Source: Spirosoma luteum DSM 19990
GTDB lineage: Bacteria > Bacteroidota > Bacteroidia > Cytophagales > Spirosomataceae
Direction: 5' to 3'
Assembly: GCF_000374065.1 (NCBI RefSeq)
Contig: NZ_KB893245.1
Coordinates: forward strand, 1 to 64,000
Length of the DNA: 64,000 bases
Shown here piece by piece: positions 2,933 to 23,212 of the stretch. The notes beneath the pieces were generated by a model, which was not told the origin of the DNA, ran no database searches, and saw only the letters and a program-made list of their open reading frames with translations. Position numbers and translations under genes: made by a program. How positions within the stretch are numbered: the stretch's first letter is position 1; every line of letters begins with the position of its first letter.

Positions 2933-4417
2933 ATGAAGACATACTATGACTTGATTGACCAGACTTTTGAGTTTCCAACTCGGGAGTTTAATGTTGAGAA
3001 CAATGAATTAATGTTTAATAATGTTCCATTGATGGATATTGTTAAAGAGTACGGTACTCCGCTGAAACTGACTTATTTGCCGAAGATTACAGAGCATATA
3101 GAGCATGCTAAACTGCTGTTCAGAAATGCAATGAAGCGGTATAATTATAAGGGTAACTATACATACTGTTATTGTACGAAGTCATCTCACTTCAAGTTTG
3201 TGCTTGATGAAGTGCTCAGAAATAATGTGCATCTGGAAACTTCATCAGCCTATGATATTCAAATTCTGAGGGAACTTTACAAATCTGAAAAGATCAATAA
3301 AGGGACTTATATAATCTGTAATGGCTACAAACGACCTCTGTATACCCAATACATTAGTGAACTGATTAATGAAGGATTTACGAACTGCATACCGGTACTT
3401 GATAATCTGAAGGAAATTGAAGCGTACGAAAATTCAATAACTGCGGACACCGTCAATTTCGGTTTTCGTATTGCTACCGACGAAGAGCCAAACTTTGCCT
3501 TCTACACCTCGCGTCTGGGTATTCGATACAGCGATGTAAATGAGTTGTATCGGAGCAAAATTCAGCCGAATGAAAAGTTCAAGCTGAAAATGCTTCACTT
3601 TTTCATTAATACGGGTATCAAAGACAGTGCTTATTACTGGAGTGAGCTTAGCCGGTTCATGTATAAGTACTGCGAACTAGCTAAAATTTGCCCAGATCTG
3701 GACTCAATTGATATTGGTGGAGGAATGCCAATTCAAACGTCTTTCCAGTTTACGTATGATTACCAAGCCATGATTGATCAAATTGTGGAAAGTATTCAAT
3801 GGATTTGTAATAAGAATAATGTTCCGGTACCTCATATTTTCACCGAATTTGGCTCCTTTACGGTTGGCGAAAGTGGGGCGGTGATTTATAAAGTAATCGA
3901 CCAGAAATTACAGAATGACAAAGAGTTGTGGTATATGATTGATGGTTCATTCATCACACAACTTCCCGATTCATGGGGATTGGGCCAGAAATATATAATG
4001 CTCTCGGTAAATAATTGGGAGAATCCCTATCAGAAAGTCAACCTCGGAGGCTTAACCTGCGATTCGCACGATTTTTATAATACTGAAGCCCATAGTGCAG
4101 ATTTGTATCTACCAATTTTTGATCAGGACGCTGAAGACCAATATATTGGTTTGTTTCATACGGGGGCTTATCAGGAATCGTTGGGTGGTTACGGTGGTAT
4201 ACAGCATTGCCTGATTCCTGCCCCACAGCACGTGATTGTCGATAAAGATGAAGAGGGGAACCTGCGCTCCCGACTATTTGCACCAGAGCAAAATAGCGAA
4301 GTGATGCTAAAAATTCTGGGATACGGTGGAGCCGAACCCGGTATGACAGAACTTGAAGCTACAGAAGCTGCTGAAGAACGCGAAGAGGAAGTTGAGTTGG
4401 TGCGGGAGGAAAATTAA
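2933..4417 (+). CDS. speA: Arginine decarboxylase, Bacteroidetes type (PLP fold III)
   Basis: 494 residues from the ATG at 2933, chosen because the upstream in-frame extension starts at a TTG and encodes a poorly matching leader. It has an alanine-racemase-like PLP barrel; the PLP lysine is K83 in YCTKSSHF. Later motifs are DIGGGMP (around 260), TEFGSF and, in the C-terminal beta domain, CDSHDFY and GAYQESLGGYGG. The enzyme makes agmatine for polyamine synthesis. An unusual acidic C-terminal tail of about 25 residues (many Glu) follows the conserved core. No agmatinase-type partner is next to it. Start choice moderately sure. Confidence 0.88.
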   Translation: MKTYYDLIDQTFEFPTREFNVENNELMFNNVPLMDIVKEYGTPLKLTYLPKITEHIEHAKLLFRNAMKRYNYKGNYTYCYCTKSSHFKFVLDEVLRNNVHLETSSAYDIQILRELYKSEKINKGTYIICNGYKRPLYTQYISELINEGFTNCIPVLDNLKEIEAYENSITADTVNFGFRIATDEEPNFAFYTSRLGIRYSDVNELYRSKIQPNEKFKLKMLHFFINTGIKDSAYYWSELSRFMYKYCELAKICPDLDSIDIGGGMPIQTSFQFTYDYQAMIDQIVESIQWICNKNNVPVPHIFTEFGSFTVGESGAVIYKVIDQKLQNDKELWYMIDGSFITQLPDSWGLGQKYIMLSVNNWENPYQKVNLGGLTCDSHDFYNTEAHSADLYLPIFDQDAEDQYIGLFHTGAYQESLGGYGGIQHCLIPAPQHVIVDKDEEGNLRSRLFAPEQNSEVMLKILGYGGAEPGMTELEATEAAEEREEEVELVREEN

Positions 4418-4504
4418 CACCTACCACTATGTTTTACGTATAGCTTTTGGCACTATTTTCGTTTAATAGTCTGACTACTAACGGTACAAATGGAAAATAG
4501 CTAT

Positions 4505-4630
4505 ATGAAAAAAATAATGGTTTTAGGTGTCGTATTAGCGACAATGTCTCTTGGATCCTGCGCCCGCAAGGCAAACTGTCCGGCCTATGGCAGCGTACAA
4601 AAACCTGTTTCTACTCAAGTCCGCGTGTAA
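4505..4630 (+). CDS. Small putative lipoprotein, 41 residues
   Basis: A short frame starting MKKIMVLGVV, with a hydrophobic stretch and a lipobox-like LGSC at residues ~16-19, then a 22-residue polar tail CARKANCPAYGSVQKPVSTQ. The signal-peptide logic, clear stop and a terminator 20 bases downstream support a real gene. An earlier in-frame ATG at 4490 would add MENSY. I recall similar tiny 'PAYGS' lipoproteins in Cytophagales but cannot verify this here. Function unknown; expected at the inner or outer membrane. Confidence 0.65.
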   Translation: MKKIMVLGVVLATMSLGSCARKANCPAYGSVQKPVSTQVRV

Positions 4631-4649
4631 ACGGTAATAGCTGATTTGC

Positions 4650-4686
4650 AAATCACGGCTCGGTTTTAAAAACTGAGCCGTGATTT
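4650..4686 (+). terminator. Bidirectional terminator hairpin between small lipoprotein and gmhB-like gene
   Basis: A 17-bp stem (4650-4666 with 4670-4686; one G-T pair) closes a three-base TAA loop and is followed by a T-run on the + strand. It separates two convergent genes; the minus-strand gene ends at 4688, just beside it. Confidence 0.85.
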
Positions 4687-4687
4687 T

Positions 4688-5206
4688 TTATGAAGTGGCT
4701 AATACATACCGTGAGGCTTCCAATAGATTGGTTGCACAGCTATCGTACTCTGATGACTGTTCTTTATCGGGTGCAATAAGCACCGTCTGGACCCCTACCC
4801 TTTTCCCTGCCTGCATATCACGCAAAGCGTCACCAATCATCCAGGAAGCGTCTGGATTGATGTTATACTTCGCCATTGCCTTTTCCAGCAATAAGGAGCC
4901 TGGTTTGCGGGTGAGTGATTCCGAGTTGTATTTTGGGTGATGAGGGCTAAAATAAATATCATCGATAAGGCGGCCGCATTGATCCTGCAAATAATGATAG
5001 CAGATCATCACATCGTTTCGGGTGTAAAGTCCCTTTGCAATTCCTGCCTGATTCGTGATAACAATGAGCAGATAACCCGCATCCTTCAACATGCGTAAGG
5101 CTTCAGGTACGCCCTCAGGAATGATAAAATCATCGACCCGATAAACATAATCGGTTCGATCTTCATTTAACACACCATCCCGGTCAAGAAAGATGCACTT
5201 GTTCAT
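4688..5206 (-). CDS. HAD-IIIA family phosphatase, GmhB-like (heptose/histidinol phosphatase)
   Basis: About 172 residues from the ATG at 5206 (MNKCIFLDRDGVLNED), chosen because family members begin at this point; an ATG two codons earlier (5212) is equally possible. HAD motif I is DRDGVLN, motif II VITNQAG, motif III includes RKPG and motif IV MIGDALRDMQAG. This matches D-glycero-D-manno-heptose 1,7-bisphosphate 7-phosphatase, which acts in LPS heptose synthesis. The zinc-binding cysteines of classical GmhB are missing: the loop reads SPHHPKYNSESLTRKP. No other heptose gene is nearby, so the substrate is uncertain. Confidence 0.78.
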   Translation of the reverse strand: MNKCIFLDRDGVLNEDRTDYVYRVDDFIIPEGVPEALRMLKDAGYLLIVITNQAGIAKGLYTRNDVMICYHYLQDQCGRLIDDIYFSPHHPKYNSESLTRKPGSLLLEKAMAKYNINPDASWMIGDALRDMQAGKRVGVQTVLIAPDKEQSSEYDSCATNLLEASRYVLATS

Positions 5207-5231
5207 ACTCATGTGGCCAATGTATGGAAAG

Positions 5232-5269
5232 CAATAATGCAATTATTTGGCCAAATAATTGCATTATTG
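5232..5269. repeat. Perfect 38-bp loopless palindrome between valS and gmhB-like gene
   Basis: The 19 bases at 5232-5250 (CAATAATGCAATTATTTGG) are followed at once by their exact reverse complement at 5251-5269. It lies in the 145-base gap between two minus-strand genes, 26 bases before the gmhB-like start. No T-run follows on the minus strand, so it is not a canonical intrinsic terminator. It may be a processing site, a terminator of another kind or a protein site. Confidence 0.9.
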
Positions 5270-5351
5270 AGTCAAAAAATAGAAAACAAATTTCAAGCCG
5301 CTGCTGGTATTTTGAAAGTCAATCAGGACGTAAATCCACACTGTACACCAC

Positions 5352-8003
5352 CTAAGCACCTAAATCCGTAAGACGTTGCTTCAATGATTGAATTTTAGCT
5401 TCTGCATCAGCCAGTTTCTGGCGTTCCCGCTCAATAACGTCAGGCTTTGCATTGGCTACAAACTTCTCATTCGATAGTTTTTTTAGTACTGAATCACGGA
5501 AACCATCATTGTAGTCCAAATCTTTACGGGTGTTGGTAATTTCCTGTTCTGTATCAATCTGACCGGCAATATTCACGAAAAATTCATCGCTCTTTATCAG
5601 GAAAGAGATGCTGGCTGAAGATTCTGTATCGGGCAAGTCGCTTACGTAGGCGATAGTTGAAACGTTAACCATCTTACGTATTAGTGACTCAAACGGCTGA
5701 AATCGGTCGGGCAATGTCGTTTTGATAGTGAGTGGTAAAGCCGTTTTTGGTGAAATCTGTTTAGTATTGCGAACATTTCGCACGTTGGAAATTATTTCAA
5801 AAAATTCCTCGAAAGAAGCTAGTATTTGCTGGTCAACTACTTCTGGCTTTGGGAATGGGGCAATGCAAATACTGGCACTGGATTCTCTCTCGCGAATATC
5901 CTGCCATATTTCTTCCGTAATGAACGGCATGAACGGATGCGCCAGACTCATGAGTTTCTCAAAGAAATTGATGGTAGCCTCAAACGTGGTTTGATCAATT
6001 GGCTGCTCGAAAGCTGGCTTAATTAGTTCAAGATACTGCGAACAGAAGTCGTCCCAAATAAGCTTGTAAATGGCTTGCAGGGCCTCCGAAATACGAAACT
6101 TGCTAAACAGGTCTTCGACATCGGTAAGCGTCTGGTTGAGTTTAGCATCAAACCAGCCGATGGACAACTCATTTTGAGTAACTCGTGGTAACGAAGAATC
6201 AACCGTCCAGCCCTTTACCAATCGGAATGCATTCCATACTTTATTACTAAAATTCCGACCCTGCTCCACCAGTTTCTCATCGAACATCAGGTCATTACCA
6301 GCTGCTGAACTGAACAACATGCCCGTTCGCACACCGTCGGCACCGTATTTTTCAATCAGGTCGAGTGGGTCGGGAGAATTACCGAGCGATTTCGACATTT
6401 TCCGACCTAGTTTATCCCGCACAATACCGGTCAGGTATACATTTTTGAACGGGGCTTCACCACGGTATTCGTAACCGGCGATAATCATTCGGGCTACCCA
6501 AAAAAACAGAATTTCGGGAGCTGTAACCAAATCATTAGTCGGATAATAATAATTGATATCGCCACTGTCGGGCTCTTTCAGCCCATTAAAAACCGACATG
6601 GGCCAGAGCCAGGCGGAGAACCAGGTATCCAGTACATCCTCATCCTGCGTCAGGTCGGCTTCGGTCATGGCAAACAGCAATTTTTCATGCTGTACTTTCT
6701 CCAAAGCCTCATGTTTATTTTTTGCCACGATGATTGTCCCATCCTGCATGTAAAACGCCGGAATGCGCTGTCCCCACCACAGCTGACGGCTAATGCACCA
6801 GTCGTGCGGATTTTCCATCCAGGAACGGTACATGTTCTTGAACTTAGCCGGGTGCAGCTGAACAGTGTCGTTCATGACGTTTTTGAACGCGGGCTTTGAT
6901 AGTTCATCCATTTTCAGGAACCACTGCAACGATAGTTTCGGCTCGATTACCGCTCCTGTGCGTTCAGATGTGCCAACGTTTGATTTATACTCTTCCGTTT
7001 TAACCAGATTGCCCGACTCCTCCAACAGCTTAATGATTGTTTTACGGGCCACAAAACGATCCTGCCCAACCAGAATCTGCGCTTTTTCATTCAGGGTGCC
7101 GTCATCGTTTAGAATGTCCAGAACGGGCAAATTATGCGTAATACCCAACGCATAGTCATTCGGGTCGTGGGCTGGGGTAACCTTCAAACCACCCGTACCA
7201 AAATCCATTGTGACGTACTCATCCGTGATGATCGGAATTTCGCGGTTGATGAGCGGAATAATGGCTTTTCTGCCATGCAGGTGTTTGTATCGTTCATCGT
7301 TCGGATTCACGGCAATGGCTGCGTCGGCCATAATCGTCTCCGGTCGAACGGTGGCAATGGTAATATAGTCCGCTTCCTGCCCTTGGGCCCCAGCTATTTT
7401 GTAGTTGATATAAACCAGTTTTTGCTGAAGTTCTTTTGTAATGACCTCTTCATCCGAAACCGCCGTTCCACCCTGCGGGTCCCAATTAACCATACGAACG
7501 CCCCTGTAAATCTGCCCCTTATTATAGAGGTCAACAAATACGTCGATAACGGAGTCGTGCAGATCGGGTTCCATCGTGAAGCGGGTCCGGTCCCAATCGC
7601 AGGATGCACCCAGTTTACGAAGCTGCTGGAGAATGATACCGCCGTATTTGTGGGTCCATTCCCAGGCATACTCCAGAAATTCGTCGCGGGTCAAATCATG
7701 CTTATTGATGCCCCGTTCTTTCAGCATAGCAACCACTTTTGCTTCGGTGGCAATGCTGGCGTGGTCGGTGCCCGGTACCCAGCAGGCATTTTTGCCTTCC
7801 ATACGCGCTTTCCGAACCAGTACATCCTGAATGGTATTGTTCAGCATGTGGCCCATGTGCAGCACGCCCGTCACGTTAGGGGGCGGGATAACAACTGTGT
7901 ACGGTTCCCGATCGTCGGGAGTTGATTTAAAGAATTGGTTATCAAGCCAATACTGATACCATTTTTCTTCTATTTCCTGGGGGGCGTATGTCTTCGAAAT
8001 CAT
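5352..8003 (-). CDS. valS: Valine--tRNA ligase
   Basis: 883 residues from the ATG at 8003 (MISKTYAPQEIEEKWYQYW), the usual N-terminus; a longer frame to 8087 adds an unlike leader. Class I signature HMGH at 49-52 after PPPNVTGVL; editing (CP1) domain with the RPETIMAD region; KMSKSLGN in the second half; anticodon-binding domain; and a C-terminal coiled-coil arm rich in K/E/R, typical of ValRS. It charges tRNA-Val in the cytoplasm. Upstream on the minus strand there is a TAATTTTG box at 8085-8092. Confidence 0.98.
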   Translation of the reverse strand: MISKTYAPQEIEEKWYQYWLDNQFFKSTPDDREPYTVVIPPPNVTGVLHMGHMLNNTIQDVLVRKARMEGKNACWVPGTDHASIATEAKVVAMLKERGINKHDLTRDEFLEYAWEWTHKYGGIILQQLRKLGASCDWDRTRFTMEPDLHDSVIDVFVDLYNKGQIYRGVRMVNWDPQGGTAVSDEEVITKELQQKLVYINYKIAGAQGQEADYITIATVRPETIMADAAIAVNPNDERYKHLHGRKAIIPLINREIPIITDEYVTMDFGTGGLKVTPAHDPNDYALGITHNLPVLDILNDDGTLNEKAQILVGQDRFVARKTIIKLLEESGNLVKTEEYKSNVGTSERTGAVIEPKLSLQWFLKMDELSKPAFKNVMNDTVQLHPAKFKNMYRSWMENPHDWCISRQLWWGQRIPAFYMQDGTIIVAKNKHEALEKVQHEKLLFAMTEADLTQDEDVLDTWFSAWLWPMSVFNGLKEPDSGDINYYYPTNDLVTAPEILFFWVARMIIAGYEYRGEAPFKNVYLTGIVRDKLGRKMSKSLGNSPDPLDLIEKYGADGVRTGMLFSSAAGNDLMFDEKLVEQGRNFSNKVWNAFRLVKGWTVDSSLPRVTQNELSIGWFDAKLNQTLTDVEDLFSKFRISEALQAIYKLIWDDFCSQYLELIKPAFEQPIDQTTFEATINFFEKLMSLAHPFMPFITEEIWQDIRERESSASICIAPFPKPEVVDQQILASFEEFFEIISNVRNVRNTKQISPKTALPLTIKTTLPDRFQPFESLIRKMVNVSTIAYVSDLPDTESSASISFLIKSDEFFVNIAGQIDTEQEITNTRKDLDYNDGFRDSVLKKLSNEKFVANAKPDVIERERQKLADAEAKIQSLKQRLTDLGA

Positions 8004-8092: not shown

Positions 8093-8165
8093 ACTAAATT
8101 GGGTAGGGTGAAAAAACGAAAGCCAGCGTTTGCCCGTTTTACTGCTACTCTTCGTCAATACTGCT

Positions 8166-9107
8166 ATGGAATTTGGGAAAATACACAACCCTGACACCGT
8201 GAATTTTGCGTTGCCGCCCGGTTCACCGTTTAATGCTAAAATCTGGAATGCTGTTGAACACACGAGCGGCAATGTGAATGCAAGGCCGATGGTTTACATC
8301 GGCGGGCCGATATGGGCTAATAAAGACTATGTGGGTAAAGTGTATCCGTCGAATGCCAAGGAGCGTGATTTCCTGCATTACTACACCCGGCAATTCAATA
8401 CAATCGAACTCAATCTGACGCACTATCAAATCCCCACTGCGGGGATGATTGAAAAGTGGAAAACGGAAGCCACCGAAAATTTCACGTACTGTCCTAAATT
8501 TCCGCAGATAATCAGCCATGAACGTCAATTAGTCGCTACGGAAGGGTTAACCGAAGATTTTGTCAATGCGGTGTTAAATCTGGAAGAGTTCCTTGGAATG
8601 ACTTTCCTTCAGTTACCCCCAACATTCGGTCCCGATAAATGGCCGGTACTCGAAACCTATCTCAAAAGCTTACCGGACGAACTGGACGTGGCTGTCGAGT
8701 TTCGGCATGAGGATTGGTTTAGCAAAGAGAACCGCACCGGCGGACCGGTCTGGCAGCAAACGCTCGAACGGCTGTATCAAATGCGTCGGCATGTAGTTAT
8801 CACCGACGTATCGAGCAGACGCGACGTGCTGCACATGGGCCTCAGTAGCCCGGTACTTACGTTGCGGTTCAATGCCAACGCCGGCCACCCAACCGATCAT
8901 ACCCGTACGGATGCCTGGATACAACGGCTCAAAATATGGTTTGACAAAGGCTTACAAACGGCTTATCTGTTCATTCACGGCGGTGGCGACAATGATACAG
9001 CACCCGAACTTATCCTGTACTGGGTTCGTGAATTGAATAAGCATTGCGGCCTAAATCTGCGCGAACCAGTCCTGCAGCCCAAAGTGGTGCAGGGGAGTTT
9101 GTTTTGA
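8166..9107 (+). CDS. DUF72 domain-containing protein (YecE family)
   Basis: 313 residues from the ATG at 8166 (MEFGKIHNPDTVNF); a longer frame begins at 8130 but the extra 12 residues look unrelated. A TIM-barrel-like DUF72 core is visible: YIGGPIWANKDYVG, a central FTYCPKFP, FLGMTFLQLPPTFGP and AVEFRHEDWF, with C-terminal YLFIHGGGDNDTAPEL. The biochemical role of DUF72 is not established. It is divergent from valS. Its last codons overlap the promoter that drives the his leader. Confidence 0.85.
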   Translation: MEFGKIHNPDTVNFALPPGSPFNAKIWNAVEHTSGNVNARPMVYIGGPIWANKDYVGKVYPSNAKERDFLHYYTRQFNTIELNLTHYQIPTAGMIEKWKTEATENFTYCPKFPQIISHERQLVATEGLTEDFVNAVLNLEEFLGMTFLQLPPTFGPDKWPVLETYLKSLPDELDVAVEFRHEDWFSKENRTGGPVWQQTLERLYQMRRHVVITDVSSRRDVLHMGLSSPVLTLRFNANAGHPTDHTRTDAWIQRLKIWFDKGLQTAYLFIHGGGDNDTAPELILYWVRELNKHCGLNLREPVLQPKVVQGSLF

Positions 9108-9133
9108 ATTACAGATAGCACCCTTTACATTTG
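9103..9133 (+). promoter_or_regulatory. Promoter of the his attenuator/hisHAF
   Basis: -33 TTTG at 9103-9106 and -7 TACATTTG at 9126-9133 with 19 bases between them: an almost ideal Bacteroidetes sigma-A promoter. The -33 element overlaps the stop codon of the DUF72 gene. The expected start of transcription (about 9137-9138) coincides with the ATG of the leader peptide. Confidence 0.8.
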
Positions 9134-9137
9134 CCCC

Positions 9138-9185
9138 ATGATTTTGCAACTCATTACATATCGGCATCACCATTCTGAGCGGTAA
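9138..9185 (+). CDS. hisL: his operon leader peptide, 15 residues
   Basis: An ATG frame encodes MILQLITYRHHHSER followed by TAA. Three consecutive histidine codons (CAT CAC CAT, 9165-9173) lie just before the first arm of an RNA hairpin, and a terminator sits directly before hisH. This is the classical arrangement of an amino-acid attenuator: ribosomes stall at the His codons when charged tRNA-His is scarce. The ATG begins at or within 1-2 bases of the predicted transcription start, so translation would be leaderless. Too short for ordinary gene callers. Confidence 0.85.
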   Translation: MILQLITYRHHHSER

Positions 9186-9281
9186 CGCAGCAGAACGAGA
9201 TGCATTTGTTTGTGAGTCCGGATAGACAATTCTGATTTCCACAATATACAAAGCCCGGTTCTGCTCAAGAGCCGGGCTTTT
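9173..9281 (+). promoter_or_regulatory. his transcription attenuator (alternative hairpins)
   Basis: Hairpin 1:2: TTCTG (9173-9177) plus GC pairs with GC plus CAGAA (9191-9195). Antiterminator 2:3: AGCAGAAC (9189-9196) is exactly complementary to GTTCTGCT (9258-9265). Terminator 3:4: a 13-bp stem (9250-9262 with 9268-9280, one G-T pair), loop GCTCA. Forming 2:3 destroys the terminator stem. A ribosome stalled at His codons 9165-9173 would cover arm 1 and free arm 2; one that reaches the stop at 9183 would cover arm 2 and allow termination. hisH starts six bases after the stem. Confidence 0.85.
9250..9280 (+). terminator. Attenuator terminator directly before hisH
   Basis: A 13-bp G+C-rich stem with a five-base loop (GCTCA), followed by TACTTTATG; the hisH ATG is at 9287. 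The T-tract includes the last stem bases (TTTTACTTT). It can also end transcripts from the DUF72 gene. Confidence 0.85.
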
Positions 9282-9286
9282 ACTTT

Positions 9287-9892
9287 ATGAAAACGGTCAT
9301 TATAAAATACAACGCCGGCAATGTTCAGTCGGTTATGTACGCCCTGGAACGGTTGGGTGCCAGCTACCTGCTGACGGATGACGAAGCCGAAATACGTTCG
9401 GCTGACAAGGTTATCTTTCCGGGTGTGGGCGAAGCCAGCACGGCCATGGCTTACCTGCGGGAACGCGGACTGGATAAACTAATACCATCCCTGAAACAGC
9501 CTGTGCTGGGTACCTGCGTGGGTATGCAGCTCATGTGCCGGTATTCGGAAGAGAACAATACAACGTGTATGGGTATTTTTGATATTGATGTTCGGCGGTT
9601 TCCTGCTACGCCTGGCTTTAAAGTACCCCACACGGGCTGGAACAATATTCATTCGTTGCAGGGGCCGCTGACGGCAGGAATAACCGCAAATGCCTACGTT
9701 TACTTCGTCCATAGTTACGCGGCTGATGTTTGCCCGCAAACAACGGCTATTTGCGATTATATTCGTCCGTTTAGTGCAATGCTGCACCGCGATAATTTTT
9801 ACGCAGCCCAGTTTCACACGGAAATAAGTGGAGATACCGGGCAACGCATTCTGGATAATTTCCTTAACCTACAACACGGACAAGCAAAATAA
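9287..9892 (+). CDS. hisH: Imidazole glycerol phosphate synthase, glutaminase subunit
   Basis: 201 residues. Class I glutamine amidotransferase: oxyanion segment FPGVGEA near 46, nucleophile Cys in GTCVGMQLM around residue 77, and His/Glu of the triad in QFHTEIS near 178-184. HisH supplies ammonia to HisF to form IGP and AICAR. The triad segment is usually FHPE; here Pro is replaced by Thr, but His and Glu remain. It starts six bases after the attenuator stem with no Shine-Dalgarno sequence. First structural gene of hisH-hisA-hisF. Confidence 0.93.
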   Translation: MKTVIIKYNAGNVQSVMYALERLGASYLLTDDEAEIRSADKVIFPGVGEASTAMAYLRERGLDKLIPSLKQPVLGTCVGMQLMCRYSEENNTTCMGIFDIDVRRFPATPGFKVPHTGWNNIHSLQGPLTAGITANAYVYFVHSYAADVCPQTTAICDYIRPFSAMLHRDNFYAAQFHTEISGDTGQRILDNFLNLQHGQAK

Positions 9893-9918: not shown

Positions 9919-10641
9919 ATGTACATTATTCCCGCAATTGACCTTATTGATGGCAAAGCCGTTCGACTGACTCAGGGTGATTACAACCAAAAGAAAGAAT
10001 ACAATGCCCGGCCGCTCGAAGTGGCCAAACAATTTGAAGGGGCTGGGTTGAAGCGACTTCACCTCGTTGACCTCGATGGCGCTAAAGAAAAACGGGTTAT
10101 CAACTGGAAAGTGCTGGAACTGATAGCCTCCCAGACGAGCCTCAACGTCGACTTCGGAGGAGGAGTACAGTCCGATGAGGATTTACGCATTGTGTTCGAG
10201 TGCGGGGCCAAACAAGTTACAGGCGGCAGTATTGCCGTGAAGCAACCCGATGAGCTGGAGCGCTGGCTTTCGAAACATGGCCCGGAAAAAATAATTCTGG
10301 GAGCCGATGCAAAAAACGAGAAAATCGCGGTAAGTGGTTGGGAAGAAGGGACCGATGTCTGGATCTACGACTTTCTGGAGCAATGGGTCGATAAGGGAAT
10401 CAAGTACGTTATCAGCACTGATGTAGCCAAAGATGGGTTACTACAGGGACCTTCGTTTGACCTGTACCGAAATATGCAAGACCGCTTTCCCGACTTGCAG
10501 ATTATCGCTAGTGGTGGCGTAAGCAACATGGACGATATTGAAATCCTGGCTGATATGGGGGTTTTCGGTGTTATTGTGGGTAAGGCGATTTATGAAGGGC
10601 GTGTGACGTTGAGCGAATTACAGAAGATTAGTGGGATATAA
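9919..10641 (+). CDS. hisA: 1-(5-phosphoribosyl)-5-[(5-phosphoribosylamino)methylideneamino]imidazole-4-carboxamide isomerase
   Basis: 240 residues, (beta/alpha)8 barrel with the half-barrel duplication: IPAIDLIDGKAVRLTQG (catalytic Asp8) at the N-terminus, VDFGGGVQ in the first half, and STDVAKDG and ASGGVSN with a second phosphate-binding site in the second half. It performs the Amadori isomerisation of ProFAR before the HisHF reaction. It begins 26 bases after hisH, so the two are co-transcribed under the attenuator. Confidence 0.96.
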   Translation: MYIIPAIDLIDGKAVRLTQGDYNQKKEYNARPLEVAKQFEGAGLKRLHLVDLDGAKEKRVINWKVLELIASQTSLNVDFGGGVQSDEDLRIVFECGAKQVTGGSIAVKQPDELERWLSKHGPEKIILGADAKNEKIAVSGWEEGTDVWIYDFLEQWVDKGIKYVISTDVAKDGLLQGPSFDLYRNMQDRFPDLQIIASGGVSNMDDIEILADMGVFGVIVGKAIYEGRVTLSELQKISGI

Positions 10642-10733: not shown

Positions 10734-10773
10734 TTTCCATCAGCGGGCGAATTAATTCGCCCGCTGATGGAAA
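10734..10773. repeat. Perfect 40-bp loopless palindrome between hisA and hisF
   Basis: TTTCCATCAGCGGGCGAATT at 10734-10753 is followed immediately by its exact reverse complement at 10754-10773. It lies in the 188-base gap between hisA and hisF. Neither strand has a T-run after it. It would form a very stable RNA hairpin within the his transcript and could act as a processing, stabilising or partial termination element. Confidence 0.92.
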
Positions 10774-10829: not shown

Positions 10830-11585
10830 ATGCTCACAAAACGCATCATTCCCTGCCTTGATATTAAAGACGGCCGTACCGTAAAAGGCACTAATTTTGT
10901 CAACCTGCGCGACGCTGGCGATCCCGTTGCTCTGGCTGCTATCTATGCCGAGCAGGGTGCTGATGAACTGGTTTTTCTGGATATTACGGCTACCGTCGAC
11001 GAACGAAAGACCTTGATTGAACTCGTGCGCAATGTGGCGCATACCATCAATATACCGTTCACGGTTGGGGGCGGCATTTCATCCGTTGCCGATGTATCGG
11101 CGTTGCTCAATGCGGGAGCCGACAAGATTTCAATTAACTCCTCCGCCGTTCGAAATCCCCAACTGGTAAACGAACTGGCACTGGAATTTGGTAGCCAATG
11201 CATTGTAGTGGCCATTGATACCCGGTACGTGAACGGTGAACACATTGTTCATACGTATGGTGGTCGTCGACCCACAGCGTTACGAACAATTGCCTGGGCT
11301 AAAGAAGTTGAGGACCGGGGGGCTGGTGAGATTCTGTTAACCTCCATGGATACAGATGGTACTAAAGCCGGTTTTGCCATTAAATTGACTGCTCAAATTT
11401 CAGGCTCGGCCAATATTCCCGTCATTGCATCGGGTGGAGCCGGGTTAATGGAACATTTTGTCGATGTGTTTACTACGGGTAAGGCTGATGCAGGGTTGGC
11501 TGCCAGTATTTTTCACTTCAAGGAAATCGACATTCCTGTTCTAAAGCGCTATTTGCAAGAGAATGGGGTCGAAATGCGGTTGTGA
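10830..11585 (+). CDS. hisF: Imidazole glycerol phosphate synthase, cyclase subunit
   Basis: 251 residues, barrel partner of HisH. Catalytic Asp11 is in [12 protein letters not shown]. Other motifs are [16 protein letters not shown] (second half), [14 protein letters not shown] with the second catalytic Asp, and ASGGAG near 202. It uses ammonia channelled from HisH. It is separated from hisA by 188 bases that hold a 40-bp palindrome, so its expression could be set apart from hisHA. It converges with the outer-membrane gene that ends 20 bases away. Confidence 0.96.
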
Positions 11586-20611: not shown

Positions 20612-21520
20612 TTACAAGGCTTTCAACTCCACCACCAAACTTTCATTATATTGCCGCGAAACGGGCACCTGTACCAAACCATTGGCCAAATGTAATCGGT
20701 AACCCTGCGCATTACCCGTAACCCGCTCAACCCGATCGAGGTTGACCACATACGACCGGTGGCAGCGCACAATGCGCGGCCGATTAATCTGTCCTTCCAA
20801 CCGGCTCAGGCTACTACGCAGAAGCGGTTTTACCAGCTGGTTATCTTTCTGATAAACGACCGTGCAGTAGTTATCGCTCGATTCAATATAGAGCAATTGA
20901 GCCGCGTCTAACGTTATAATATCCTTTTCATTATCCGAAACCAGCGTCAACGGAGTTTCTTCCCGTCTGGGAGTAGGTATAGAGATGGTTTCTGTACAAT
21001 TCGCTGGCTCTGCCGGCGTTGGTGGATATACGGGAAAACCAGCCGCCGACTGACTGTACTTTCTCAGCTTACGTATATAATTGAACACAACGGCCCCCGT
21101 TGTGGGGAACAGCCCGAGAAGAAAGGTGACCAGTATCATTCCAAGCCAACTGGTGTAGTCTTTGTAGCCTTCCTGACTGAGCATCCACTCCAGATAAAGT
21201 CGGTTGCCAATCGCAATCAGCAAAATATTGCCCGTTATGAGCATAATTTGCCGACCTACGTTCCAGCGTTCATCAGCAAATTGCCGGGGGAATAATTGGG
21301 GCCAAACCGTAAAGTTGAATGCCGTAATGACAAACGTGACCAGGCCAAAACCGAGTATCTTCAGCGGCTTATCAGGTGTTTGCCAAAAACTCAGACCGAA
21401 GGGCTGAAAAACCAATAAGAATAAGCCAACGAACAGCCCAATTATAGCCGCCTGACGCATTTCCCGAGTGGGCGATTCAGTTGAGGGATAGGGCTGCCTG
21501 AATAACTCGGGTATACGCAT
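20612..21520 (-). CDS. LytTR-family transcriptional regulator with N-terminal membrane domain
   Basis: 302 residues. Four hydrophobic helices in the first ~150 residues (starting AAIIGLFVGLFLLVFQPFGLSF), then a linker and a LytTR DNA-binding domain at about 195-300: ITLDAAQLLYIESSDNYCTVVY, LLRSSLSRLEGQ and IVRCHRSYVVNLDRVE with the typical cis-regulatory HRSYVVN core. A one-component regulator that would sense at the membrane; no response-regulator receiver domain. It lies 5 bases after the rhomboid gene on the same strand, so the two are likely co-transcribed. Confidence 0.88.
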   Translation of the reverse strand: MRIPELFRQPYPSTESPTREMRQAAIIGLFVGLFLLVFQPFGLSFWQTPDKPLKILGFGLVTFVITAFNFTVWPQLFPRQFADERWNVGRQIMLITGNILLIAIGNRLYLEWMLSQEGYKDYTSWLGMILVTFLLGLFPTTGAVVFNYIRKLRKYSQSAAGFPVYPPTPAEPANCTETISIPTPRREETPLTLVSDNEKDIITLDAAQLLYIESSDNYCTVVYQKDNQLVKPLLRSSLSRLEGQINRPRIVRCHRSYVVNLDRVERVTGNAQGYRLHLANGLVQVPVSRQYNESLVVELKAL

Positions 21521-22228: not shown

Positions 22229-23212
22229 TCAGCTTTCCCGCTCAACTAATTGATGGGCAAATTGAATCAATAACTTTTTCCGGTCAGGGTCTGCATCAAC
22301 CTGGTCGAAATTGGCAAAGCCCCGGTCAAAGTAACCCGTAATGCGGGATTCGGTAAGCTGACGAATACCCAGTTGGTCGTAAATAGCCGTAACGGCCTGC
22401 ACCTTCTCGGCTTTATCGAATGTCGTTTTGGTTAACCAGTCAGTCAGTTCTTCTCTTACTGAACCCTGAGCCTGTTGAAGGGCCTCAATGAGGAGAAACG
22501 TTTTCTTGTTCGCAATAATATCGCCCCCCACCTGCTTGCCAAATTTGGCTGGGTCACCATACACATCCAATAAATCGTCTTTCAGCTGAAAACCAACCCC
22601 AATGTTCATTCCGCCTTCGTACAGATGTTGCCGGGTGGTTTCACCTGCACCCGCAATTAAGCCGCCCAGTTCAAGCGCGTAGCCCAGCAGAACCGACGTT
22701 TTAAGGCGAATCATATCGATGTATTCGCCTTCGGTAACGTCCCAGCGGGTCTCGAAATTCATATCCATCTGCTGGCCTTCGCACACCTCGGCAGCTGTCC
22801 GGCTGAACCGCTCCAGCGCCGGCTTTAATTTGTCGCCTTCAACAGATAACAACAGTTGGTAGGCATTAACCAGCATCACATCACCGGACAGAATAGCCAC
22901 ATTACCATTCCATTTTTCGTGAACTGTTGGCTGATTACGACGTAGTGGAGCCTGGTCCATGATATCGTCGTGCATGAGCGTGAAGTTATGAAATACCTCA
23001 ACCGCCAGCGCCGGACGAACTGCTTTTTGCCAGTCATCCGTAAACAGGTAGGTAGCCATAAGCGTCATCAGGGGACGCATACGCTTACCGCCAAGACTCA
23101 TAATATACCGAATAGGGTCGTAGAGTTCGGCAGGGGAGTGCCCATATTGAATAGACTGAAGTTCGTTTTGGAGGGCATCAACAAAAATAGCTGGACTCAT
23201 TCGGCTAAGCAT
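22229..23212 (-). CDS. Polyprenyl synthetase family protein
   Basis: 327 residues, trans-isoprenyl diphosphate synthase fold. First aspartate-rich motif MHDDIMD, followed by LRRNQPTVH; second motif LKDDLLDVYGD; and a GGKRMRP diphosphate-binding segment near the N-terminus. It elongates farnesyl or geranylgeranyl diphosphate to a quinone side chain or related polyprenyl; chain length cannot be read safely. The start may be M1 (23212) or M5 (MSPAIF, 23200). It sits 45 bases after the barrel gene 23258-24082. Confidence 0.92.
   Translation of the reverse strand: MLSRMSPAIFVDALQNELQSIQYGHSPAELYDPIRYIMSLGGKRMRPLMTLMATYLFTDDWQKAVRPALAVEVFHNFTLMHDDIMDQAPLRRNQPTVHEKWNGNVAILSGDVMLVNAYQLLLSVEGDKLKPALERFSRTAAEVCEGQQMDMNFETRWDVTEGEYIDMIRLKTSVLLGYALELGGLIAGAGETTRQHLYEGGMNIGVGFQLKDDLLDVYGDPAKFGKQVGGDIIANKKTFLLIEALQQAQGSVREELTDWLTKTTFDKAEKVQAVTAIYDQLGIRQLTESRITGYFDRGFANFDQVDADPDRKKLLIQFAHQLVERES

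Follow-up and report, generated by a model that had tools for sequence, protein, structure and literature searches.

Control of his genes by a leader peptide is stated, in the consulted excerpts of PMC9413887, for E. coli and other gamma-proteobacteria, and is predicted there for three Firmicutes lineages. The locus described here resembles the enterobacterial hisL attenuator in having a short leader with consecutive His codons and mutually exclusive antiterminator and terminator structures before his genes, and it shares with the Firmicutes attenuators the His codons (three to five in those systems), the terminator and antiterminator hairpins and recognition by comparative genomics (PMC9413887, excerpts). 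The leader ORF predicted here at the 5' end of the RNA has counterparts in the leaderless leader peptides of Streptomyces lividans (PMC8079986, excerpts) and in trpL of Sinorhizobium meliloti (PMC7298713, excerpts), with a terminator hairpin following in several of these cases. Within the Bacteroidota, excerpts of PMC9723704 report clues of leader-peptide attenuation before amino-acid operons of Flavobacterium psychrophilum, and the Bacteroid-trp motif RF01692 represents the same general idea in the same phylum (PMC2864571, excerpts).

We analyzed the region before hisH in the window, by which we mean the whole 64,000-nt stretch of DNA. The closest match to this hisH is that of Spirosoma spitsbergense (94% identical), a member of the Cytophagales, Bacteroidota, in the NCBI taxonomy, and hisH, hisA and hisF all score above their NCBIfam equivalog cut-offs. 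Taken together with its relatives, the locus is, by its sequence, a real and conserved His attenuator of the classical type. The regulation that we infer, and consider very likely, is that hisHAF would be controlled by ribosome-mediated transcription attenuation, with a His leader peptide read from a leaderless transcript. The features, in order along the DNA, are:

9103..9133, forward strand: Bacteroidota-type promoter, -33 element TTTG at 9103-9106 and -7 element TACATTTG at 9126-9133 (motif; spacing of the -7 element in relatives)
9138..9138, forward strand: predicted transcription start, the A of the leader ATG (4-nt gap in 81/86; G at -5 of the -7 element, PMC6847099, excerpts)
9138..9185, forward strand: leader ORF MILQLITYRHHHSER, 15 codons, stop TAA at 9183-9185 (sequence; His-rich ORF conserved in 86/110)
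9164..9203, forward strand: putative pause hairpin 1:2, pairing 9164-9168/9199-9203, 9173-9177/9191-9195 and 9179-9181/9186-9188, with the stop codon in the loop (fold)
9165..9173, forward strand: three His control codons CAT CAC CAT (sequence; aligned codon cells of relatives)
9173..9177, forward strand: arm 1, TTCTG (sequence)
9189..9196, forward strand: arm 2, the 5' side of the antiterminator, AGCAGAAC (sequence, duplex folding, swaps, covariation)
9250..9286, forward strand: terminator hairpin 9250-9280 and T-rich tail 9281-9286 (fold, scan, relatives, covariation)
9258..9265, forward strand: arm 3, the 3' side of the antiterminator, GTTCTGCT, inside the 5' arm and loop of the terminator (sequence, swaps, covariation)
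9287..9892, forward strand: hisH (NCBIfam TIGR01855, 188.2 bits, cut-off 105.4)
9919..10641, forward strand: hisA (NCBIfam TIGR00007, 240.2 bits, cut-off 228.95)
10830..11585, forward strand: hisF (NCBIfam TIGR00735, 360.1 bits, cut-off 294.55)

The gap between hisA and hisF holds a perfect inverted repeat of 20 bp without spacer (10734-10773).

A sequence-only reading had proposed the promoter, the 15-codon leader, its His codons, arms 1 and 2, the terminator and an exact 8-base complementarity between arm 2 and the 5' arm and loop of the terminator. Direct reading found every part exactly where it had been placed, and AGCAGAAC (9189-9196) and GTTCTGCT (9258-9265) are indeed exact complements. 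The terminator hairpin has 13 bp and a 5-nt loop at -22.5 kcal/mol, with none of 200 shuffles as good, and the fold of 9134-9300 gave z = -4.28, unmatched by any of 200 shuffles. Taken by itself, the 5' half (9138-9206), which contains the putative pause hairpin, was not unusual, as 16 of 200 shuffles folded as well. The weak point of the window's terminator is the T-tract after the stem (TACTTTATGA), which is interrupted. A search of Rfam gave no family at gathering score in the region. With E up to 5 there were 12 matches, none near the gathering score; two Thr_leader matches covered the terminator hairpin only, and His_leader (which we take to be RF00514) and T-box were absent.

For the comparison with relatives, hisH was found in 195 of the 200 genomes searched in the window's family. 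We used 110 of these 195 upstream regions, the 30 best-scoring (the source genome included) and 80 picked for spread over genera, and scored a leader wherever a short ORF carrying two or more His codons began 0-8 nt after a TAnnTTT[G/A] box. Such a promoter-linked ORF precedes hisH in 86 of the 110 genomes and in 20 of 27 genera (the hisH start being set 3 nt off in G056); the same scan found a mean of 0.61 and a maximum of 3 of 110 in 200 shuffles, and 0 on the reverse complement. The leader peptides diverge strongly across genera and keep the His cluster, as in MNSTITHHHHHLIS, MLTAETYHLHHGLLAFGRLG and MNCTVFHHHSHVWLR. At three aligned codon positions in 64 sequences, His occupies 161 of 191 cells (128 CAT and 33 CAC). 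A set of 80 named hisH loci, which partially overlaps the first, contains 13 with a His leader: three Spirosoma, seven Dyadobacter, two Siphonobacter and one labelled Cellulophaga sp. BC115SP.

The remaining 24 of the 110 sampled family genomes gave no leader match. The contig ends less than 150 nt upstream of hisH in three of them (G009, G033, G042). All seven genomes of genus g31 are without a match, and hisH there comes after the end of another gene, which we take to be ribH, closely in six and distantly in G075. Genus g12 (five of five without a match) has a promoter-like box at most. The -7 box of G067 (locus L120) directly adjoins the terminator, with no leader ORF left; since the assembly is just 71% complete, this may be an artefact.

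Scoring of the hairpins before hisH put a terminator-like one first in 85 of the 86 matches, that of G069 being assigned by hand. The position of this hairpin bears on a different reading of the locus, in which the 3:4 hairpin mainly blocks the start of hisH translation, that is, translational attenuation with the same leader peptide and the same sensing by the ribosome. The window itself would suit this arrangement, since 6 nt separate its hairpin from the hisH ATG and its T-tract is interrupted; in many relatives, however, the hairpin lies tens of nucleotides or more before hisH (to about 130 in the window's genus) and is followed by a T-run. We consider translational attenuation improbable and retain transcription attenuation as the preferred reading. 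Within the window's genus, G079, G089, G121, G126, G146, G149, G152, G161 and G188 have an extra stretch of about 40-130 nt between hairpin and hisH; by eye, some of these stretches contain repeats or inverted repeats.

The leader also has a characteristic place relative to its promoter. A scan for E. coli-type promoters found none at 9103-9133, as expected for a -33/-7 pair of the Bacteroidota type. Across the 86 hisH matches in the family, the gap between the TAnnTTTG box and the leader ATG is 4 nt in 81, 3 nt in three and 5 nt in two. The -7 element of F. johnsoniae spans -12 to -5 (PMC6847099, excerpts); with this geometry and a 4-nt gap, position +1 would coincide with the A of the ATG, which would make the leader peptide leaderless. 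On these sequence grounds, the his leader of the window probably has its start codon at +1. A TTG begins at -36 to -32 in 50 of the 81 genomes with the 4-nt gap, compared with 2-19 of 81 in control windows, which fits a -33 element; a second TTG peak lies at -39 (31 of 81). Leaderless transcripts make up 5.5% of mapped mRNAs in F. psychrophilum (PMC9723704, excerpts), and about 3.7% have a 5' UTR below 10 nt in B. thetaiotaomicron (PMC7366714, excerpts). As far as measured in the phylum, leaderless mRNAs are thus the exception, which makes the almost invariant predicted start at +1 conspicuous; neither figure comes from Spirosoma. As a background for the -7-to-ATG spacing within the window, a usable motif was present for 4 of 54 predicted genes, all leadered, which is too few to weigh.

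We next consider the two exclusive helices. Alignment A1 reduced the 86 sequences to 64 by dropping genera g32, g23 and g15 and two identical rows. The terminator stem shows compensatory changes (for example GCCCGG/CCGGGC, GCCTGA/TCAGGC and GCCCGA/TCGGGC), 92.8% of its cells pair and 33 cells have changed on both sides; its covariation score was reached by 0 of 500 shuffles, while pairs altered on both sides and further pair types were no more numerous than in shuffles (139 and 130 of 500 did as well). In the 2:3 helix, 83.2% of cells pair, compared with at most 48.9% when slid, and the covariation score was reached by 12 of 500 shuffles; two-sided changes and pair types were again no better than in shuffles (186 and 107 of 500).

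Because MAFFT cannot follow the register shifts between genera, arm swaps were added, with one genome for each of 19 genera and 5000 permutations, uncorrected for ancestry. G023, with a doubtful leader 418 nt upstream and a 5-nt gap, was left out. Native 2:3 duplexes had a mean of -14.15 kcal/mol, compared with -11.44 kcal/mol for cross-genus combinations, and native 3:4 duplexes -20.22 compared with -14.82 kcal/mol; for both helices, 0 of the 5000 ancestry-uncorrected permutations did as well. The native 2:3 duplex was better than the cross-genus mean in 16 of the 19 genera. Genus g32 (18 matches) has a different geometry, arm 2 having been chosen there within the terminal part of the ORF. 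An exact-helix shuffle test of arm 2 in 41 genomes, in which at most 10 of 200 shuffles were as good in 10 genomes, is weak because the arms are short, and duplex folding and swaps were used instead. For the pause hairpin the A1 covariation counts were favorable and the swap test was not (1855 of 5000). An inner antiterminator stem was positive in the alignment count and negative in the swaps (337 of 5000 when each genus was represented once, 4589 of 5000 for the full set); we do not claim it.

These results also bear on whether the hairpin could be a plain terminator of the preceding gene, with the His ORF arising by chance. That gene (8130-9107) lies on the same strand and ends about 140 bp before the hairpin, as such a reading would want; against it, the spacing between the -7 box and the His ORF is constant in 81 of 86 matches and arm 2 co-varies with arm 3. 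We regard this explanation as very unlikely, and continue with the attenuator.

The switch itself was modelled in 85 genomes (G023 left out), the ribosome being assumed to cover 14 nt counted from the A site. A ribosome placed at the last His codon of the longest run lets upstream sequence of the nascent RNA form at least 4 pairs with the 5' arm of the terminator in all genomes but one (84 of 85). Moved to the stop codon, it allows the terminator to form in every genome (85 of 85); competing pairing is then reduced relative to the stall in 79 genomes, yet 42 of the 85 retain 4 or more competing pairs. For the window, the stalled nascent RNA folded at -23.1 kcal/mol with 11 cross pairs, a number that dropped to 5 once the ribosome had been moved to the stop codon. 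The sequence-only reading had stated that ribosome position, at the His codons or at the stop, would switch the folds, and the model agrees (antiterminator in 84 and terminator in 85 of the 85 genomes). Beyond this, the His cluster, the stop codon and the arm complementarity are conserved before hisH in most sampled relatives (86 of 110 with a leader), and the swaps and covariation counts revealed compensatory change in the alternative helices, a check that had been set beforehand. Conservation, arm complementarity and compensatory change thus bear out the earlier interpretation as a leader-peptide his attenuator; the parts, their conservation and the co-variation of the two exclusive helices can be read in the sequences themselves.

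From these parts we infer the start site, translation, stalling, termination and response to histidine, as follows. The promoter at 9103-9133 would start the RNA at or beside A9138, and the first ribosome would load on the 5'-terminal AUG. When charged tRNA-His is scarce, this ribosome would stall at the His codons (9165-9173) and cover arm 1; arm 2 (9189-9196) would then pair with arm 3 (9258-9265), no terminator would form and the polymerase would continue into hisH. With ample histidine, translation would proceed to the stop codon (9183-9185), the ribosome would cover arm 2, and the terminator (9250-9280) would form. The short terminated RNA or its peptide might instead exert most of its effect in trans, as do rnTrpL/peTrpL of S. 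meliloti, since a leaderless RNA of small size that ends in a strong hairpin resembles rnTrpL in its layout (PMC7298713, excerpts); the non-His residues of the leader vary widely between genera, and we judge action in trans to be highly unlikely. Action in cis, by attenuation, remains our reading.

The his genes of the source genome are scattered: hisHAF on contig 1, hisG, hisD and a hisC-like gene on contig 68, hisIE on contig 2 after a trpA-like gene, and hisB on contig 20 (hisC and trpA were named by reading). No comparable attenuator was recognised at the hisG-hisD-hisC, hisIE or hisB loci, so the switch would cover only part of the pathway. The genome has three histidinol dehydrogenase genes in differing neighbourhoods (L194, L195, L196). 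In L195, three further genes (3920-5394) separate hisD from hisC; presumably one is deformylase-like and two resemble an Xre/RES toxin-antitoxin pair. The order of a trpA-like gene and then hisIE is seen in L201 (554-2025, contig 2), and through this position downstream of the trpA-like gene part of histidine synthesis may be under tryptophan control.

His-rich leaders occur elsewhere in the phylum before hisG. Outside the family, 84 rows were examined (30 best-scoring and 54 picked) from the 171 of 198 with a match, a number that includes the source genome and G031. A His-rich leader follows a TAnnTTTG box in 33 of these 84 sampled Bacteroidota, in 10 of 21 families (shuffle mean 0.02, maximum 1). 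The gap from box to ATG is 4 to 48 nt, so most of these leaders have a real 5' UTR. Very His-rich leaders, such as MKELLLHIHHLSGDVHHAHRGHHHIHVH, are found among these upstream regions (L202-L286). Inside the family, 4 of 32 hisG rows (31 genomes, G031 twice) have a leader, each with a gap of 4 nt. The hisG of the source genome has a weaker leader ORF, picked up by a looser filter: the leaderless MISHWATHSPLRHCRPSCDC at about 8140-8210 of L195, minus strand. At this place, relatives show more distinct His runs (MISQRATHSPFRHRRHHRGC, MNSQQTDATFFRHRHHHGC); no terminator was seen. We rejected an attenuator before the source genome's own hisG, where the His codons of the leaderless ORF are scattered, no terminator was seen and a second -7 box lies nearer hisG.

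Within the source genome, no His leader was found before hisB, and a strict scan found no leaderless leaders before trpE, ilvD (two), the homoserine dehydrogenase gene or hisIE. The trpE gene has a leadered Trp leader, MNNSVSMIWWWHSSQPR, some 57 nt after a TATCTTTG box (seen and counted by eye). This 5' UTR means that leaderlessness is no rule for all leaders of the genome. The region before trpE (L197, about 1180-1440, contig 2) looks attenuator-like, with MNNSVSMIWWWHSSQPR followed by a strong hairpin and T-run, and part of its 5' UTR resembles, by eye, a tRNA T-arm. Two leaderless ORFs of WWW type in the window were set aside, one at 20694 on the minus strand, inside a gene (which we take to be of the LytTR type) and therefore due to chance, and a second at 23189, also inside an ORF.

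Tentatively, and with somewhat less than even confidence, we suggest that leaderlessness is a selected part of the switch: keeping the leader AUG at +1 would let the sensing ribosome engage the RNA the moment it emerges from the polymerase, with coupling from codon 1 onward. Under this proposal, the splitting of the operon would have been the occasion on which a his attenuator, of the kind that presumably often precedes hisG in other Bacteroidota, was established anew and in leaderless form on hisHAF, leaving a decayed copy before hisG.

The attenuator of the window differs from enterobacterial hisL in phylum and promoter type, in being probably leaderless and in serving hisHAF only, and its region is without an Rfam His_leader match, whether at gathering score or with E up to 5. 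The Firmicutes attenuators belong to another phylum and stand before the his operon, with no leaderless design mentioned in the excerpts of PMC9413887. The leaders of S. lividans and S. meliloti concern Leu, Trp, Ilv and other amino acids, with no His in the excerpts, and come from other phyla (PMC8079986, PMC7298713). The F. psychrophilum clues share the phylum and the general idea, and the excerpts of PMC9723704 name no his operon, arms or leaderless design. We found no report of a his attenuator for Bacteroidota in the open-licence literature, as far as its excerpts extend, and within that literature the attenuator is apparently unreported for this taxon. The probable leaderless start, the 24 of 110 family genomes without a match and the His leaders before hisG in the phylum go beyond the sequence-only reading.

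The locus thus offers a concrete, conserved Bacteroidota example with testable parts where the literature, in the excerpts consulted, offers hints, together with a larger group of His leaders upstream of hisG. The phylum is without Shine-Dalgarno sequences. Such a locus is a natural system for asking how ribosomes without this signal load fast enough to control RNA polymerase. The mechanism would be that of the classical his attenuator; the taxon, the probable leaderless design and the split operon are what is new.
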